From: Desulfuromonas sp. CSMB_57
Lineage (GTDB): Bacteria > Desulfobacterota > Desulfuromonadia > Desulfuromonadales > Syntrophotaleaceae
Length of the DNA: 35,993 nt
NCBI RefSeq assembly: GCF_020194955.2
Contig: NZ_JAFCIY020000058.1
Location: 1-35,993, forward strand
Direction: 5' to 3'
Both the position numbers and the translations under genes were made by a program. Shown in pieces: positions 25,149 through 31,639 of the stretch. The first letter of the stretch is position 1, and each line of letters opens with the position of its first letter. The notes below the pieces were generated by a model. The model ran no database searches, was not told the origin of the DNA, and was given only the letters and a program-made list of their open reading frames with translations.

Positions 25149-27986
25149 CTATTTACCGGCCAGGGCCTTGATGACGTCCGCCGGCTTGGGCAGCTCGGAA
25201 TCCACCGCGTCGGAGGTGTAGCCAAGAGCGATGGCATCCGCCACGTCGAAGGCCTTCTTCTTGGAGCCGAGGGCCGCCAGGACCTTTTCCGGATAGGCCG
25301 GGAGATGCCGGATACGAACGCCGCAGGCGTCGTCGATGGCGTTGATGACCGCGCAATGCGGAGCGGTCAGCGGCAACTCGCCGACGCCGCCGGCACCAAA
25401 GGCACCGTGCTTGCGAGGTTCGCAGACGTAGATGATTTCCAGATCGTCGGGGATGTCGTTGCAGAACGGGAAGCCCGCGCCGATCATGTTGGAGTGCTTC
25501 TTGATGTGCTCGAAGTCCTCGGTCAGGGCCAGACCGATGCCCTGGGCCAGGCCGCCGTAGATCTGACCGTCGACGGCCAGCTGGTTGGTGATGGTGCCGA
25601 CGTCGGCGACGTGGGTCATCTTCAACACGGTGGTCTTTCCGGTGGTGATGTCCACTTCGACCTCGGCCAGGAACAGACCGTACATGTAAATGCAGAACGG
25701 TTCGCCCTTGCCGGTTTCGACATCGCACTCGGTGCAGGGAGTGGTCCACCTGCCGAGATGCTTGGTTTCGATGCCTTCGGCCTTCATTTCATCGTAGGTG
25801 CGATAGGTGCCGTCGGCCTTCTTCATGGCTTCAAGCAGCATTTCGCAGGCCACGCGGATGGCGTTGCCGGTAACCACATTGTGGCGGCTGCCGCCGGAAG
25901 GACCGGAGTTGGGGGTCAGGGCGGAGTCGTTGAGGCACAGGTTGATCTGCTCCGGCCGCAGGCCCAGGGGCTTGAGGCTTTCGTGGGCGAAGGTGAGGGT
26001 ACCGATGTCGGAACCCTGGCCGTGGTCCTGCCAGCTGTTGCCGATCATCACTTCACCGTTGGGCAGCAGTTCGGCCCAGGCTTCGGAAGTGTCGGGTCCG
26101 TCGAGGCCGCAACCGTAGATGCCGAGGGAGACGCCGACGCCGCGTTTCTTGGTTTCCGTGGAGTTCAGTTCGGCCAGTTGCCTGGCGCGCTCGTACTTGG
26201 GCCGCAGGGCTTCAAACTGTTTCGGGAAGACGAACACTTCCGGAGTTTGCTGGGTCGGGGTGGTGGCGCCTTCGCGATAGCAGTTCAGTTCGCGCAGCTC
26301 GAAGGGGTCCTTGCCCATCTTCTTGGCCAACTCGTCGATGAGCGACTCGGAGGCGAAGAAGGACTGCGGCGAACCGTAGGCGCGGAAGGGAGCGCCCCAG
26401 CAGTGGTTGGTGGCGACGGTATGGCCCTGACCGCGCATGTTGGGGATGTCATAGCCGGAGAAGGCGTACTGCATGCCGCGCGAGGTCAGCAGGTCGCCGA
26501 ACTCGGAGTAGGGGCCGTGATCGACATACCATTCGGTCTCGGTGGCCAGGAACTTGCCGTTTGCATCGGCGGCCAGCTTGGCCTTGAACCAGAAGGGCGA
26601 ACGCTTGCCGGTGTAGAACTGCAGCTGAGCCCAGCTGTACTCGAGATAGCAGGGGACACCGGTGGCCATGGTGGCGGCGGCGACCAGGGCTTCGTTGCTG
26701 GGGCAGAATTTGTAGCCGAAGGAGGAACCGCAGGGATTCTGTACGATGACCAGGTTTTCCGGATCCACCCCGAGGCCCGGGGCGATCATGGCGATATGCA
26801 GCTGCAGGGCGATGGACTTGGAGTGGACGCAGACCTTGCCTTCTTCATTGATGTAGGCGAAGCCGATGTCCGACTCGAGGGGCATCTGCGGCTGGCGGCC
26901 GAGATAGTATTCGCCCTCGACCACGTGGGCGGCTTTTTCCATGATCGGCGCGGTTTCCTCACCCTTCTTCAGGCCCTGGGTGAAGTAGAGGTTGGGGGTG
27001 CCGGGATGGATTTCAATGGCGTCCTCGGCAATGGCGGCCATGGCGTTCATGTAGTGCGGCAGCACTTCCAGGTCGAGTTTGACCGCCTTGGCGGCCGCGT
27101 CGGCCTGGGCCTGGGTCCGGGCGCAGACGATGGCGATGGCGTCGCCGTACTGGAAGACCTTCTTGTCGCACAGGATGGGGCGCTCCCAGCCATCGCCCTT
27201 GTTGGTCGGGAAGGTGATCAGGCCGGTGATGCGGTTCTTGCCCTTGATGTCCTTGGCGGTGACGATTTTCACCACGCCGGGCATCTTTTCGGCCGCGGAG
27301 GTGTCGACGCCGTTGATGTTGGCATGGGCCACGTCGGCGTAGACCAGGGAGCAGAACAGGGTGCCTTCCGGCAGCTGCTCACGCTTGTCGGCGCCGAAAT
27401 CCCACAGGCCGCAGACCTTGGCCACCGAAGTGGGGCGGGGATAGCGGGTGCCGTAGAGGGAGCCGTCGGTAGGCGCTTTGTAATCGAGCAGGGCTTCGTC
27501 CATGTCGCCGCGCAGGACCTTGGCGGCATCCATGGCGGCATCGACCAGAGACATGTAGCCGACACAGCGGCAGGCGTTCTTGTACTTGGTGAACCAGTCG
27601 CGCACGTCCTGGCGAGTCGGGTTGAGGTTCGTGTCCAGCAGGGCCTTGATGGAGACGACGAAGCCCGGGGTGCAGAAACCGCACTGCAGGGCGCCGTGCT
27701 TGATGATGGCCTTCTGGATGGGGTGCAGATTCTGCGGCGTGCCGATACCCTCGACGGTGGTGATTTCCGACCAGTTGTCGATGCGCTTCATGCGGGTGAC
27801 GCAGGAACGCACCAGCTTGCCGTTCACAATCACGTTGCAGGCGCCGCAGGTGCCGGTGCCGCAGCCGACCTTGGTGCCGGTCAGCTGAAACTGTTTGCGG
27901 ATGACATCGGACAGCAGGGCGTCTTGGTCAACGATGACATGGCGCTCAACGCCGTTGACCTTGAGCATTTTTTTAACCAGTCCCAT
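25149..27986 (-). CDS. mop: Molybdenum hydroxylase, Mop-type aldehyde oxidoreductase
   Basis: A 945-residue single-chain molybdenum hydroxylase of the xanthine oxidase family. From memory it aligns end to end with D. gigas Mop. The N-terminal plant-type 2Fe-2S domain has Cys42, Cys47, Cys50 and Cys62; the second 2Fe-2S domain has Cys102, Cys105, Cys139 and Cys141 (QCGFCTPGF, NACRCVGY). The Mo domain carries GKNRITGLITFPTNKGDGW, NPCGSSFGYKF, GPYSEFGDLLT and WQDHGQGSDIG. The catalytic Glu is in GAGGVGELPLTAPH. No FAD domain is present. It oxidises aldehydes to acids using water, with molybdopterin cytosine dinucleotide. AAAGGAGG precedes the ATG, and codon bias is very strong, so it is probably highly expressed. 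A 1016-codon antisense frame on the plus strand is a shadow. Confidence 0.96.
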   Translation of the reverse strand: MGLVKKMLKVNGVERHVIVDQDALLSDVIRKQFQLTGTKVGCGTGTCGACNVIVNGKLVRSCVTRMKRIDNWSEITTVEGIGTPQNLHPIQKAIIKHGALQCGFCTPGFVVSIKALLDTNLNPTRQDVRDWFTKYKNACRCVGYMSLVDAAMDAAKVLRGDMDEALLDYKAPTDGSLYGTRYPRPTSVAKVCGLWDFGADKREQLPEGTLFCSLVYADVAHANINGVDTSAAEKMPGVVKIVTAKDIKGKNRITGLITFPTNKGDGWERPILCDKKVFQYGDAIAIVCARTQAQADAAAKAVKLDLEVLPHYMNAMAAIAEDAIEIHPGTPNLYFTQGLKKGEETAPIMEKAAHVVEGEYYLGRQPQMPLESDIGFAYINEEGKVCVHSKSIALQLHIAMIAPGLGVDPENLVIVQNPCGSSFGYKFCPSNEALVAAATMATGVPCYLEYSWAQLQFYTGKRSPFWFKAKLAADANGKFLATETEWYVDHGPYSEFGDLLTSRGMQYAFSGYDIPNMRGQGHTVATNHCWGAPFRAYGSPQSFFASESLIDELAKKMGKDPFELRELNCYREGATTPTQQTPEVFVFPKQFEALRPKYERARQLAELNSTETKKRGVGVSLGIYGCGLDGPDTSEAWAELLPNGEVMIGNSWQDHGQGSDIGTLTFAHESLKPLGLRPEQINLCLNDSALTPNSGPSGGSRHNVVTGNAIRVACEMLLEAMKKADGTYRTYDEMKAEGIETKHLGRWTTPCTECDVETGKGEPFCIYMYGLFLAEVEVDITTGKTTVLKMTHVADVGTITNQLAVDGQIYGGLAQGIGLALTEDFEHIKKHSNMIGAGFPFCNDIPDDLEIIYVCEPRKHGAFGAGGVGELPLTAPHCAVINAIDDACGVRIRHLPAYPEKVLAALGSKKKAFDVADAIALGYTSDAVDSELPKPADVIKALAGK

Positions 27987-28113: not shown

Positions 28114-29136
28114 TCATTTTCCGAAGCCGCAATCGGGGTAGTGGCATCGTTCACAACCGGCACAGAGGCCGCCGTGGCCCAGGGCGACGATGTCCTGCCT
28201 GGTAACGGTTTCGCCGGCCAGCAGACGCGGCACCACCAGTTCGAAGATGGTGGCCTTGTGATACATGGCGCACCCCGGCAGGCCGATGAGGGGGATGCCC
28301 TCCAGATCGGCCAGCATGAACATGGCGCCGGGATAGGTCGGGGAGCCGTATACAACCACCTTGGCGCCACTGGCACGGATGGCGGCCGGCGTCAGATCGT
28401 CGGGATCCACCGACATGCCGCCGGTCAGAACCACCATCTGGGCGCCTTCGTTGCGCAACTCGTTGATGGCGGCGACGATGGCCGTCAACTGATCCGGAAC
28501 CACCACCTGGCGCATGACGGTGCTGCCCAGGGCCCGGAATTTTTCCCTGATGACCGGCCCGAACCGATCTTCGATGCGGCCGTGGAAAATTTCGTTACCG
28601 GTGGTCACCAGGCCGATCTGAAGGGATTTGAAAGGGCGTACGCTGACCAGGGGGGGATGGTCCTGGCAGCGCTCGGCCAAACGATTCAGGTTTTCCGTGT
28701 CGGTAAACAGGGGGATGATGCGGGTTCCGGCCACCACCTTGCCGGCTTTCACAGGCTGGTTTGAATGCAGTGTGGCGATGGTGATATCCGGCAGATCGTT
28801 GAGATCCGCCAGCAGTTGGGCATCGATTTTCAGCAGACCGTCCTGTTCGGCCGTCAGTTCCACCTTGCCCTGGTTCGGTTCGCCGAAGCGCACATGGGGG
28901 CCGCAGATGTGTCCGGCAATGCGATCCGCCGCTTCATCTTCGTGAATCAGACCGTCGGGCAGGTTCAGTACATAAATACGATCCTTCCCCAACTGCATGA
29001 GCTTGGGAATATCATCGGCCGTGATGCAGTGCCCCTTTTTGAAGGCTCGGCCCTTGAATTCGCCGGGGACGATACGGGTGATGTCGTGAGAGAGAAAGCG
29101 GCCGACGGCTTCCTGTACGGGGATGACTTCCACCAT
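28114..29136 (-). CDS. Molybdopterin-binding (MoeA/MoCF-like) protein with Cys-rich tail
   Basis: A 340-residue protein with a MoCF_biosynth core: IGLVTTGNEIFHGRI, VVLTGGMSVDPDDLT and IGLPGCAMYHKATIFE. It likely binds molybdopterin and helps insert Mo or hand the cofactor to the hydroxylase. The first 160 residues form a MoeA-like N-terminal region. It ends with CAGCERCHYPDCGFGK, a C-x2-C-x2-C-x4-C set that is unusual for MoeA and could bind Fe-S or zinc. The ATG at 29136 has GAGGAA seven bases upstream. It directly precedes mop (127 bp gap), and its leader carries structured element copy A and a terminator. Confidence 0.92.
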   Translation of the reverse strand: MVEVIPVQEAVGRFLSHDITRIVPGEFKGRAFKKGHCITADDIPKLMQLGKDRIYVLNLPDGLIHEDEAADRIAGHICGPHVRFGEPNQGKVELTAEQDGLLKIDAQLLADLNDLPDITIATLHSNQPVKAGKVVAGTRIIPLFTDTENLNRLAERCQDHPPLVSVRPFKSLQIGLVTTGNEIFHGRIEDRFGPVIREKFRALGSTVMRQVVVPDQLTAIVAAINELRNEGAQMVVLTGGMSVDPDDLTPAAIRASGAKVVVYGSPTYPGAMFMLADLEGIPLIGLPGCAMYHKATIFELVVPRLLAGETVTRQDIVALGHGGLCAGCERCHYPDCGFGK

Positions 29137-29155: not shown

Positions 29156-29200
29156 AAAAACCCGCACTTGGGCCAGTTTGCAGACTGGCTTCGGTGCGGG
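29156..29200 (-). terminator. Intrinsic terminator in the leader of the molybdopterin-binding gene (copy A)
   Basis: On the minus strand, CCCGCAC (29200-29194) pairs with GTGCGGG (29167-29161), and an inner 6-bp GCCAGT/ACTGGC stem extends it; TTTTT at 29160-29156 follows. The 5' arm begins immediately after the structured core, and the terminator ends just before the SD of the downstream gene. This is the layout of an expression platform. Confidence 0.85.
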
Positions 29201-29241
29201 TTTCGTTAAGTCTGCCCGGGGGCAGAGGACGAAATGAGCGC
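29197..29241 (-). promoter_or_regulatory. Structured leader element, copy A (candidate riboswitch)
   Basis: The minus-strand RNA has GCGCTCA, then an outer stem ATTTCGT/ACGAAA (29234-29229 with 29206-29201), an inner stem TCTGCC/GGCAGA, and CCCG directly after. It lies between the YezD-like gene and the molybdopterin-binding gene. It shares its core with copies at 29,630 and 31,393. I do not recognise it as a known riboswitch class. Confidence 0.75.
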
Positions 29242-29319
29242 GATGTTGTGGTTTCAGAATGTTCCGCAGGTCCGATAAGGCATGGCTCGCCTTGGTGTCA
29301 TGCTTGCGGAGTCATTCCG

Positions 29320-29547
29320 TTATTTGAGTTGTTCAACCCTTTCAATGTAGCTGACGCCACCTTCTTTGAAGGCAATGACCAGCTTGCCGGAAAAGCTGCG
29401 ATTAACCAGTTTCAGAGCGCGCATGATATCGGCAATGGCCTGTTTGCAGTCCGAGATGGACGCCCCAATGTCCGATTGGACTTTCCTTTTCTGGAAGGCT
29501 TTTCTCTGGAGTTGTGTCTCCAGGAGCAGGATTTCGGGAACCGACAT
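29320..29547 (-). CDS. Small YezD/DUF2292-like protein, copy 1
   Basis: A 75-residue protein. The C-terminal 23 residues, FSGKLVIAFKEGGVSYIERV, closely match the other copy at 31,451 (FSGKLVIAFKEGGISFIEKS). The pattern of a beta strand, GG turn and IE motif resembles the DUF2292/YezD family (GSV-I-HDG-I-QIE). The N-terminal half (MSVPEILLLETQLQRKAFQ) is helical and not conserved between copies. The ATG at 29547 has a strong GGAGG SD; the frame is open upstream to a TTG at 29586. It lies between structured elements B and A. Function unknown; a regulatory or structural role linked to the RNA elements is possible. Confidence 0.8.
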   Translation of the reverse strand: MSVPEILLLETQLQRKAFQKRKVQSDIGASISDCKQAIADIMRALKLVNRSFSGKLVIAFKEGGVSYIERVEQLK

Positions 29548-29584: not shown

Positions 29585-29633
29585 AAGAAAAGAAAACCCT
29601 ACCAATGACCCTTGGGAAAGCAATTGATACGGG
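29585..29633 (-). terminator. Intrinsic terminator in the leader of YezD-like gene 1 (copy B)
   Basis: On the minus strand CCC-G-TATCAAT pairs with ATTGGTA-GGG (one bulged G), about 10 bp, followed by the T-rich run TTTTCTTTTCTT. The stem begins at the conserved CCCG after the core, exactly as in copy A. Confidence 0.75.
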
Positions 29634-29673
29634 TTTCGTGAAGTCTGCCGGAGGCAGAGGACGAAATGGGCGC
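29630..29673 (-). promoter_or_regulatory. Structured leader element, copy B (candidate riboswitch)
   Basis: The same core as copies A and C: GCGCCCA, outer ATTTCGT/ACGAAA stem, inner TCTGCC/GGCAGA with loop TCC, then CCCG. It lies in the leader of YezD-like gene 1, downstream of a promoter at about 29,740-29,768. The 303 bases between 29,548 and 29,850 hold this element, its terminator, the promoter and the end of the NifX-like transcript; I see no gene there. Confidence 0.75.
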
Positions 29674-29738
29674 ATTATTTATTCATGCCCGAAAAAAGGC
29701 TTCACCCTTGAAAAAGCAAACCGTGTTTGGGAGGCTTA

Positions 29739-29850: not shown

Positions 29851-30357
29851 CTAGTGGACCGTATCGCAGGAGGTCTTGCCCTGGCTGCCGCATCCTTCGG
29901 TGCCCTGTAATGCGCAAGAACTGCAATCCGCTTCCTCTTCCTCGTGATCGTGGTCATGATCATGATCACAGGAACCCTCGTCCCCGTCATCACCACAGCG
30001 GCCGGCCTCGTGGCTGTAGCAGGGTGCCAGTTCGATGAGACTGTTGGCCGCCAATTGCTCAAGGGTTTCCTCAAGGGTACCGCCCCGGGTTTCATAGACC
30101 CGGAAGCCGCACAGATTGTTCATGGTCTGCAGGGCGGCATCGCCGATGGCATCGACGATGATGGCGTCCAATTGCTGCAGGTGCAGGGCGGCGTATGGGT
30201 TGCAACCTTGCTGTTCGTTGCGCGGGTCGCAGTTGGCGACGACCATCGTCTCCCTGGTTTCGCTGTCGACAATCAGAAACAGGGGCGCGGAATTGAAGTG
30301 ATTGAACAACTTGCTGTTCAAGCCTTCGTCCCGGGTAATGGGGAAGCAGACTTTCAT
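29851..30357 (-). CDS. NifX/NafY-like FeMo-cofactor-type protein with His/Asp/Cys metal tail
   Basis: A 168-residue protein. Residues 1-110 are a dinitrogenase iron-molybdenum cofactor biosynthesis domain: MKVCFPITRDEGLNSKLFNHF, then LDAIIVDAIGDAALQTMNN. This family binds Fe-S or Mo-containing clusters. The tail (about 115-168) is packed with Cys, His and Asp (CYSHEAGRCGDDGDE; four HD repeats; CSSCALQGTEGCG), as in metal chaperones. The ATG at 30357 has AAGGAG upstream. It is 34 bp from the TylF-like gene, so they are probably one operon. nif genes are absent here, so a role in molybdenum handling for the hydroxylase is the simple guess. Confidence 0.9.
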   Translation of the reverse strand: MKVCFPITRDEGLNSKLFNHFNSAPLFLIVDSETRETMVVANCDPRNEQQGCNPYAALHLQQLDAIIVDAIGDAALQTMNNLCGFRVYETRGGTLEETLEQLAANSLIELAPCYSHEAGRCGDDGDEGSCDHDHDHDHEEEEADCSSCALQGTEGCGSQGKTSCDTVH

Positions 30358-30391: not shown

Positions 30392-31312
30392 TCAGACAGC
30401 TATGGCTCCCGGGTGCCAGAACAGCGCCTGACCCGTGGGAAGATACAGGGGGCGCTGCTCCTTGCCGGTGAAAAATTCATCCACCGCACGGCGGATGCCG
30501 GGGCAGGACTCGAAACCGTAATCATCCCATAGCAGCATGCCGCCGGGACTCAGGCGGGACGCAAAAAAGGCACAGCAATCCAGCGCCGATCCGTAGACAT
30601 CCACATCTACATGCACCAGGGCAAAGCACTGGTCCCGCAAGGTGTCCGGAACCGTTTCCGGAAAACGCCCGGGATGGATATGGGTGTCTGGAAAGGGGTC
30701 GAGCAGTCGGCGAACCTTTTCGAGGCTGGTATCGTTGAAATCACCTGGACAATGATGGTCCAGATCGGTGTCGGCTTCGGGAATGCCGCTGAAGGTATCG
30801 AACAGGTGCAACGGTTTTCCGGCCCCGGCCAACGCCCGGGCCATGAGCAGGGCGGTGCCGCCGCGGTACACGCCGACTTCGGCAATCGCTCCGGGAATAT
30901 GCCGGGCCATATGCGCCAACTGGAATAAAATAGCCAGGCGATCGTCGCTCAACAGGGTCAGGCCCCGCAGATCTTCAAGTAAATCGGCAAATTCCGGCTG
31001 CAGGGCGGTAAAGTCGGCGGGCTGCGGATCGGCTTGCTGGAAGTGGAGGTGTTCCTTGCGGCCCAGAGCGCGAAGGCGATCTCGGATGTGGACATAATGG
31101 CGTCCGACGGCCACCAGGATGAGATATTCATCGGACGGCACTGTTTTGAGATAGTCCGGGCCATGGATGGGATGGCCCGCAATGGTCTGTCCCTGGCGAG
31201 CGGGATTGCCGTCAATGAAGCAGTGAACCTGCGGGGGACTGGCGAGCAGATTGAGACGTCGCAGCAGGGCGGTGCCCTGACAGCCGGCGCCATAGATGAT
31301 AACGGGTTTCAT
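30392..31312 (-). CDS. TylF/macrocin-O-methyltransferase-like protein with N-terminal Rossmann region
   Basis: A 306-residue two-part protein. Residues 1-100 (PVIIYGAGCQGTALLRRLN, FIDGNPARQGQTIAGHPI) look like a PglD/nucleotide-sugar-binding Rossmann domain, as in some sugar epimerase regulators. Residues 130-306 match TylF-type methyltransferases: GAIAEVGVYRGGTALLMARAL is the SAM-binding region, and FDTFSGIPEAD and VHVDVDVYGSALD are the family hallmarks. The substrate is unknown; TylF enzymes usually methylate sugars in antibiotics or glycans. Here it lies with molybdenum genes, in the leader of which element C lies. The ATG at 31312 has AGGA seven bases upstream. Confidence 0.85.
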   Translation of the reverse strand: MKPVIIYGAGCQGTALLRRLNLLASPPQVHCFIDGNPARQGQTIAGHPIHGPDYLKTVPSDEYLILVAVGRHYVHIRDRLRALGRKEHLHFQQADPQPADFTALQPEFADLLEDLRGLTLLSDDRLAILFQLAHMARHIPGAIAEVGVYRGGTALLMARALAGAGKPLHLFDTFSGIPEADTDLDHHCPGDFNDTSLEKVRRLLDPFPDTHIHPGRFPETVPDTLRDQCFALVHVDVDVYGSALDCCAFFASRLSPGGMLLWDDYGFESCPGIRRAVDEFFTGKEQRPLYLPTGQALFWHPGAIAV

Positions 31313-31319
31313 GGCTGAA

Positions 31320-31345
31320 TCCTGCGTTTTTTGGGCTGACGCAGG
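31320..31345 (-). promoter_or_regulatory. Hairpin covering the ribosome binding site of the TylF-like gene
   Basis: On the minus strand CCTGCG (31345-31340) pairs with CGCAGG (31326-31321), and the AGGA SD overlaps its 3' arm. This would hide the SD of the gene at 31312, so control in copy C may be at translation. Confidence 0.55.
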
Positions 31346-31351
31346 GCATGG

Positions 31352-31398
31352 AACCGCGCCAGCGGTTGATGGCGATATCAACACGGCCAGGGCGGGTT
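31352..31398 (-). other. Long hairpin following element C
   Basis: On the minus strand AACC-CGCC pairs with GGCG-C-GGTT (one bulge), enclosing a perfect 6-bp GTTGAT/ATCAAC stem. It starts at the conserved CCCG after the core, where copies A and B have terminators, but no T-run follows. Confidence 0.6.
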
Positions 31399-31438
31399 TC
31401 GTTGGGTCTGCAGGAATACAGAGGACGAAATGGGCGCG
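31393..31438 (-). promoter_or_regulatory. Structured leader element, copy C (candidate riboswitch)
   Basis: The same core as A and B with the inner stem TCTGTA/TGCAGA. Relative to A and B two pairs change: one C-G becomes A-U and one becomes U-G. The U-G wobble pairs only in minus-strand RNA; the plus strand would have C-A. It lies after YezD-like gene 2 and before the TylF-like gene. Confidence 0.75.
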
Positions 31439-31450
31439 GTGGTTTCAGTG

Positions 31451-31639
31451 TTATTTGAATGTTTCGGATTTTTCTATGAAGCTGATGCCGCCTTCCTTGA
31501 AGGCAATAACCAGTTTTCCGCTGAATTTGTCCGGAATGATGCCCAGTTCGCGCAGCGTGTCGCACACTTTTCGTTTCCAGACGGAATTGGGTACTCTGAT
31601 GTCCGTAACGACCTGTTTGCGTTTTTCGTTATCCGGCAT
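31451..31639 (-). CDS. Small YezD/DUF2292-like protein, copy 2
   Basis: A 62-residue protein: MPDNEKRKQVVTDIRVPN, a basic helical middle, then FSGKLVIAFKEGGISFIEKS near the C-terminus. It is clearly paralogous to the copy at 29,320 in the last 23 residues only. The SD (AGGA) is 11 bases from the ATG at 31639, rather far. A good -35/-10 pair lies 140 bp upstream. Structured element C begins 13 bases after its stop, and element A follows the other copy in the same way. Confidence 0.75.
   Translation of the reverse strand: MPDNEKRKQVVTDIRVPNSVWKRKVCDTLRELGIIPDKFSGKLVIAFKEGGISFIEKSETFK

Follow-up and report, generated by a model that had tools for sequence, protein, structure and literature searches.

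In BglG/LicT antitermination, the regulator gene has a conditional terminator on either side, each overlapping a conserved RNA hairpin. Other systems close to the locus described here consist of leader RNAs. The Moco/Tuco riboswitch, RF01055, is found, like Moco-II, at genes of molybdenum and tungsten cofactors, and intrinsic terminators follow some of its copies, according to the available text of Regulski et al. 2008 (PMC2408646). For the crcB and pfl motifs, the available text of Weinberg et al. 2010 (PMC2864571) describes a terminator that overlaps the 3' end of the motif and reads both as ON switches. The table of that paper gives the marks y, Y and ? for Moco-II, in columns that we take to stand for RNA, cis-regulatory and riboswitch. 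It was the only paper found in searches for 'Moco-II' or 'RF01713', and no functional study of Moco-II was found in the PMC papers searched.

The window, i.e. the whole stretch of 35,993 nucleotides from Desulfuromonas sp. CSMB_57 that was analysed, carries a repeated 'element core' that a covariance model matches as Moco-II RNA (Rfam RF01713). Three copies, designated A, B and C, were found, all on the minus strand and all above the gathering cut-off of 35 (Table 1). Although RF01055 shares their gene context, its model of 135 positions is unlike Moco-II and has no match in the window at gathering cut-offs. Like crcB and pfl, Moco-II shares its 3' end with a terminator but, unlike them, it is accompanied by a dedicated small protein. 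Since a gene for one type of this protein (type II) lies between two elements, the arrangement resembles that of bglG. However, the BglG/LicT RNA is unrelated to Moco-II RNA, and the small protein has none of the BglG/LicT domains, as it matches no Pfam or NCBIfam family (for the two small proteins of the window, no Pfam family at E 0.001). The expression platform, the tandem with RF01055 and the protein partner described below are not mentioned for Moco-II in the available text of PMC2864571.

Table 1. Features of the window around the three Moco-II copies.
Feature	Coordinates	Strand	Evidence or remark
Molybdopterin aldehyde oxidoreductase gene (mop-type)	25149..27986	-	MoCoBD_1, MoCoBD_2, Fer2_2, Ald_Xan_dh_C
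MoeA-like molybdopterin-binding protein gene behind copy A	28114..29136	-	PF00994, E 3.8e-26
Terminator, copy A	29156..29200	-	sequence; 5' arm CCCGC 29200-29196 = end of the core
Moco-II RNA core, copy A	29196..29243	-	RF01713, 56.4 bits
5' GCG of copy A, P1 partner of CGC 29198-29196	29239..29241	-	GCG/CGC pairing
Small protein type II, 75 aa from ATG, between copies B and A	29320..29547	-	aligned family of 23; no Pfam at E 0.001
Terminator, copy B	29587..29633	-	sequence; one bulged G in stem, T-rich tail; lenient test only
Moco-II RNA core, copy B	29629..29674	-	RF01713, 58.9 bits
NifX-like protein gene upstream of copy B	29851..30357	-	PF02579, E 1.2e-12
TylF-like protein gene behind copy C	30392..31312	-	PF05711, E 2.5e-20 (frame from 31384)
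Moco-II RNA core, copy C	31392..31438	-	RF01713, 50.5 bits; no 3' arm found
Small protein type I, 62 aa, 12 nt before copy C	31451..31639	-	aligned family of 23; no Pfam at E 0.001

The genome of the window carries five Moco-II copies in total. In the class, Moco-II was found at 73 places in 20 of 277 genomes, by a search whose stricter filters lose weak matches; 70 of the 73 exceed the cut-off. In a sample of the phylum, the only carrier among 395 genomes is that of the window. Other carriers are records labelled Desulfuromonadales, Geobacter and Deltaproteobacteria. A pattern scan of genome contigs gave 26 loci, and Moco-II was present in 4 of the 15 that were scanned with Rfam; among viral contigs, the exact pattern was not found.

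The terminators behind copies A and B, as proposed in an earlier note made from the letters of the window, are borne out by the sequence. In copy A, the stem joins CCCGCAC (29200-29194) to GTGCGGG (29167-29161) and is followed by five T (29160-29156), so that the limits given in the note, 29156-29200, are exact to the base; the loop is occupied by an inner hairpin, GCCAGT..ACTGGC. As also claimed, this terminator ends just before the Shine-Dalgarno sequence of the molybdopterin-binding gene: GAGG lies at 29149-29146 and the ATG of the MoeA-like gene at 29136. The stem described for copy B was recovered as well, with CCC (29633-29631), a bulged G (29630) and TATCAAT (29629-29623) facing ATTGGTAGGG (29606-29597), and with a T-rich tail, TTTTCTTTTC (29596-29587). 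Both terminators start at the conserved CCCG, where the note had placed their junction with the core. However, core and terminator do not abut but overlap, because CCCGC is itself the end of the Rfam consensus. The proposed control of the MoeA-like gene (PF00994) and of the aldehyde oxidoreductase gene fits copy A, whereas the terminator of copy B precedes the small-protein gene.

Behind copy C, no terminator was found by the strict test, the lenient test or the search for a 3' arm. Downstream of this copy, a hairpin CCTGCGT/ACGCAGG (31321-31345, minus strand) covers, by eye, the likely ribosome-binding site of the TylF-like gene, and copy C may act on translation. A general consensus scan for terminators, which allows loops of 3-8 nt only, listed just the inner part of the terminator of copy A and nothing at B; its 6 terminator-like sites are not clearly above the 3.5 found in shuffles (sd 2.2), and a promoter scan gave 1 site against 1.3 expected.

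The overlap extends far beyond the window. To pass the strict test, a stem must begin exactly at CCCG with 5 or more contiguous pairs, and 5 or more of the 8 bases that follow it must be T. A terminator sharing bases with the conserved core, as in attenuating riboswitches, was found in 56 of the 73 copies by this test, copy A included, and in 62 by the lenient one, which copy B passes while failing the strict test because of its bulge. In 200 rounds of shuffling of the downstream sequence, a mean of 0.47 and never more than 3 of the 73 copies passed the strict test; of the 7104 CCCG sites in the fetched loci, elements included, 117 pass it. When the anchor was slid by up to 60 nt on either side, the count was highest at offset 0; a lower peak (41-43 copies, at -13/-12) is not independent, since it uses the same GGG-T arm. 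A chance origin of the terminators at CCCG is therefore rejected by the shuffles and the slid anchors. A 3' arm was located in 63 of the 73 copies, which form the set used for covariation; they were thus picked for having this arm, and the shuffles ignore relatedness. With these limits, 12 of the 16 pairs of the terminator stem show two-sided changes, and its covariation score is 0.256 against 0.161 in shuffles, none of 500 reaching 0.256. In the same 63 copies, two-sided changes affect 5 of the 6 pairs of the inner stem of the core and 0 of the 6 pairs of its middle stem. On this comparative evidence, an attenuator anatomy across the 73 copies is strongly supported.

The ten copies without the arm are copy C, G001_186813, G001_189530, G009_C109_1138, G192_22933, two in G011_C33, G193_C8_34525, G007_241323 and G154_C104. 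A tandem-type subset, before methyltransferase or BtuF-like genes, was seen at L077:6814 and 9531, L086:1138, L088:6294 and 6368 and L084:6324; at the position of the 3' arm, most of them run into the first bases of a second, often degenerate Moco-II copy. When the 617,439 bases of the fetched loci were scanned with a matrix that ignored GCGC and CCCGC, all 73 copies were recovered, together with one degenerate copy, and none in shuffled sequence. CCCGC is therefore kept even in the ten copies that lack the arm, although the loci had themselves been picked with the full model.

A nearly invariant GCG close to the 5' end of the element can pair with the CGC of CCCGC. The structure given by Rfam for RF01713 leaves these bases unpaired, whereas they are proposed here to form a helix P1 of 3-4 pairs. 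Each of the three GCG/CGC pairs is standard in 72 of the 73 copies; exchanges are an A-U in one copy (G197_C206) and G-U in two, among which copy B, and GCG is absent from G153_C197. These pairs reflect conservation more than covariation, because shuffling also gives 71-72 of 73. Two-sided changes occur in 2 of the 4 pairs of P1 among the 63 copies. Pairs outside GCG/CGC are found in 27 of 73 copies (shuffle mean 21.8, P 0.014), 41 (32.6, P 0.001) and 20 (20.3), which offers weak evidence at most that P1 extends further.

As CCCGC can pair either in P1 or in the terminator, the two helices would be mutually exclusive. When the core is folded alone, CCCGC is predicted to pair with its 5' side in 62 of the 63 copies; when core and hairpin are folded together, at least 4 of its 5 bases go to the terminator in 61 of 63. 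With both states enforced, the terminator is the more stable in 60 of 61 copies, by a mean of 9.4 kcal/mol. The last two counts score copy B as an exception, with an arm one base short; with its full arm, copy B agrees (-24.3 kcal/mol as terminator, -19.7 with P1). In copy A, the corresponding values are -35.8 kcal/mol as terminator and -26.9 with GCG/CGC enforced. The two inner stems of copies A and B stay in both predicted states. When P1 is enforced, the hairpin that remains is set off from the U-tract by 5 or more unpaired bases in only 53 of 61 copies, and by a single one in copy A, which counts against the attenuator reading.

Moco-II and the hairpin behind it are thus probably a conditional transcription attenuator whose effector-bound state is ON, and this polarity is likely. 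Without effector, the more stable terminator would form and transcription would stop short of the genes for the MoeA-like protein and the aldehyde oxidoreductase. If an effector held the core in the form with P1 closed, CCCGC would be withheld from the terminator, and transcription would continue, as in an ON switch. With less certainty, this effector might report the status of the molybdenum versus the tungsten cofactor, either by binding to the RNA itself or via the small protein. The overlapping terminator and the competing helix give Moco-II a concrete, testable mechanism and polarity. The earlier note had read the leaders as transcription-attenuating riboswitches controlled by a ligand: the anatomy of an attenuator holds over the 73 copies, but 'ligand' is too narrow a term, because a co-occurring small protein could be the effector.

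The genes behind the copies are consistent in kind. A gene of 18 chosen families, largely of Mo/W-cofactor and sulfur functions, lies within 1 kb on the same strand at 73 of 73 copies, the families having been chosen from these same loci. The first gene is MoeA-like (PF00994) in 19 cases, a methyltransferase in 11, DsrC in 6, a NuoE-like formate dehydrogenase subunit in 6, a molybdopterin aldehyde oxidoreductase in 5, a TylF-like protein, a cysteine desulfurase, a small protein of type II or a NifX-like protein in 4 each, a nitroreductase in 3 and a formate dehydrogenase alpha subunit in 2, with five singles; families were assigned from representatives, and G198_C197, with a stray aldehyde oxidoreductase match, was placed in the MoeA-like group. 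Because every copy has such a co-directional gene and the stems covary, a functionless genome repeat is unlikely.

The small protein found twice in the window belongs to a family of 57-84 aa that falls into two types in the alignment. For the type II gene, a longer frame starting from TTG 29586 is also listed. Of the 73 Moco-II copies, 23 have a gene of this family no more than 400 nt upstream; a 24th match was false. The protein was presumed to resemble DUF2292/YezD, but two relatives searched at E up to 1 gave no DUF2292 match, and only a weak match to Flavodoxin_4, below the cut-off of that family. Its structure, predicted with modest confidence, combines a helix and a beta hairpin (pLDDT 70, pTM 0.45). 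Comparison of the fold was uninformative (best Foldseek E 1.4), and the best match to sequences of solved structures has an E of 0.076.

From its distribution, this protein may be a trans-acting factor for Moco-II. One version of the attenuator reading goes further: the protein would bind Moco-II RNA as an antiterminator, alone or with a Mo/W signal, much like the BglG/LicT proteins at their own RNA sites, to which it is unrelated in family. This is a serious possibility, if one that falls short of being probable. It would account for the strong matches (E < 1e-18), which occur in 19 of the 20 genomes with Moco-II and in 0 of the 257 others. The exception, G259, counts against it, as two Moco-II copies coexist there with a weak match only. 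Weaker matches (4.1e-6 to 7.2e-4) occur in nine genomes without Moco-II and, in the phylum sample, the protein was found at E up to 1e-5 in the genome of the window alone (1 of 345). The antiterminator reading also draws on the concordant presence or absence of protein and element within genera: neither occurs in G004 (g2), G005, G010 and G012 (g3) or G182, G183 and G185 (g66), whose congeners have both. However, the absence from G010 is uncertain, since this genome is 67% complete and has a MoeA-like fragment at a contig edge.

A shared operon could yield such co-occurrence without any regulatory role. A control with the MoeA-like protein speaks for the antiterminator: eight genomes without Moco-II (G142, G150, G203, G217, G232, G234, G239 and G243) have an orthologue of it (56-58% identity) and no strong match to the small protein, with a weak one in G150. 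There, roughly 30-45 nt, free of any element, separate the end of an upstream gene, taken by eye for the NifX-like one, from the MoeA-like gene; a loose core-like match in L168 was discounted, as it falls inside the presumed NifX-like gene. Among the 20 Moco-II genomes, 19 have the MoeA-like orthologue, as contig-end fragments in G153 and G259, and G196 has none.

The position of the genes also speaks for an antiterminator. For 27 of 28 strong small-protein genes, the next Moco-II lies 5-1406 nt downstream on the same strand and, in four genomes (G000, G002, G008 and G013), one element precedes the start of the type II gene by 81-101 nt while a further element comes after the gene. Against this reading stand one strong gene of G199 that has no Moco-II behind it, and the lack of any family or fold match for the protein, the model having a pLDDT of 70. 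The gene in G199 (L173:4389-4607, contig C110) has RF01055 about 1.3 kb upstream and no Moco-II downstream in the stretch.

The other version of the attenuator reading is that of a true riboswitch, in which Moco-II would bind a molybdenum (or tungsten) cofactor or precursor directly. The sequence-conserved core, the Mo/W gene context and the series with RF01055 favour it, but we regard it as rather doubtful. The core is one 46-nt hairpin, which seems small for such a large ligand, the dedicated small protein would be left unexplained, and 19 of the 20 genomes with Moco-II have RF01055 anyway. As these two readings are versions of the attenuator, the confidence placed in each overlaps with that placed in the attenuator itself. 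With the small protein, it becomes easy to ask if the Moco-II class is a riboswitch at all.

Published physiology bears on the question through the genome G001. Of the four RF01055 matches in this genome, two lie next to genes for AFOR-type aldehyde:ferredoxin oxidoreductases, and we take G001 to be Pelobacter carbinolicus because their positions fit Pcar_0456 and Pcar_0665. Moco riboswitches precede these two genes, according to the available text of PMC3543383. The RF01055 match at 319 kb is perhaps that of aorA1 (Pcar_0254), but a presumed moeA and an alcohol dehydrogenase then follow within 6 kb, which does not fit aorA1. The molybdenum aldehyde oxidoreductase of the window has one relative in G001, at 281906-284734, 1.15 kb behind a Moco-II copy, presumably about where Pcar_0220 should lie. 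According to published proteomics in the available text of PMC4275255, expression of Pcar_0220 is seen when molybdate is present and tungstate absent; with tungstate, tungsten enzymes are expressed instead, and the pattern with both metals resembles that with tungstate. Provided that G001 is P. carbinolicus, a Moco-II operon would thus be under Mo/W control in vivo, either by a promoter or by an attenuator.

Such control could operate entirely at promoters, for instance by a tungstate-responsive repressor, with the terminators being constitutive and setting the stoichiometry of the operon. The tungstate effect published for the presumed P. carbinolicus homologue could indeed be promoter-based (PMC4275255, available text). 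This explanation is nevertheless improbable, as a plain terminator needs no conserved core that keeps CCCGC where no terminator follows. A literature search on TunR found nothing relevant. Ribosome-coupled attenuation, in which a ribosome translating the small ORF as far as the stop codon would decide the folding of the core, finds some encouragement in a stop codon 1-3 nt before the element in G008_32013, G001_278681, G009_3393, G154_19749, G011_46892 and G007_3111532, but is very improbable, as only the 23 copies counted above have the ORF within 400 nt upstream, most of these 23 at a greater distance than those six, and the ORF is conserved over its length.

The attenuator proposed for Moco-II is found in some genomes behind the classical Moco riboswitch. 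Of the 277 genomes of the class, 167 have RF01055, and its presence in nearly all Moco-II genomes, as given above, rejects Moco-II as its replacement. Among the 73 Moco-II copies, eight are preceded on the same strand by an RF01055 match, at a distance of 41-129 nt (L091, L100, L104, L105, L110, L117, L123 and L124), in six genomes that all belong to the family f24. Six of the eight RF01055 partners are above the cut-off and two below (G198_C211 and G154_C104), and one series, G193_C13 (L104), has a second RF01055 behind Moco-II. By eye, 7 of the 8 gaps between RF01055 and Moco-II hold a GC-rich hairpin with T-rich sequence. An apparent terminator follows both RNAs in six of the eight series, which appear from their sequences to be two attenuators in series; that of Moco-II is lacking in G193_C8 and G154_C104. 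The available text of a review of tandem riboswitches (PMC9481103) reports Moco doublets and triplets and does not mention a pair of RF01055 and Moco-II.

These series suggest a second input. A bolder proposal, which we consider unlikely as a whole, is that Moco-II RNA is recognised by very small antiterminators of a new family, encoded between Moco-II attenuators or just ahead of them, that sense Mo- versus W-cofactor status and open the terminators of a dispersed regulon, acting in some genomes in series with the Moco riboswitch as a two-input gate. If the antiterminator reading is true, such a gate would choose between molybdenum and tungsten enzymes.

Weak relatives of the small protein were also seen beside other riboswitches. 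In G193, two of them are encoded 125-175 nt behind classical Moco riboswitches (RF01055, plus strand, L176:4232-4350 and L177:4107-4223). Others accompany c-di-GMP-I riboswitches, behind two of them in L175:3926-4249 and before one in each of L174:3809-3887, L152:1136-1214 and L153:1876-1955.
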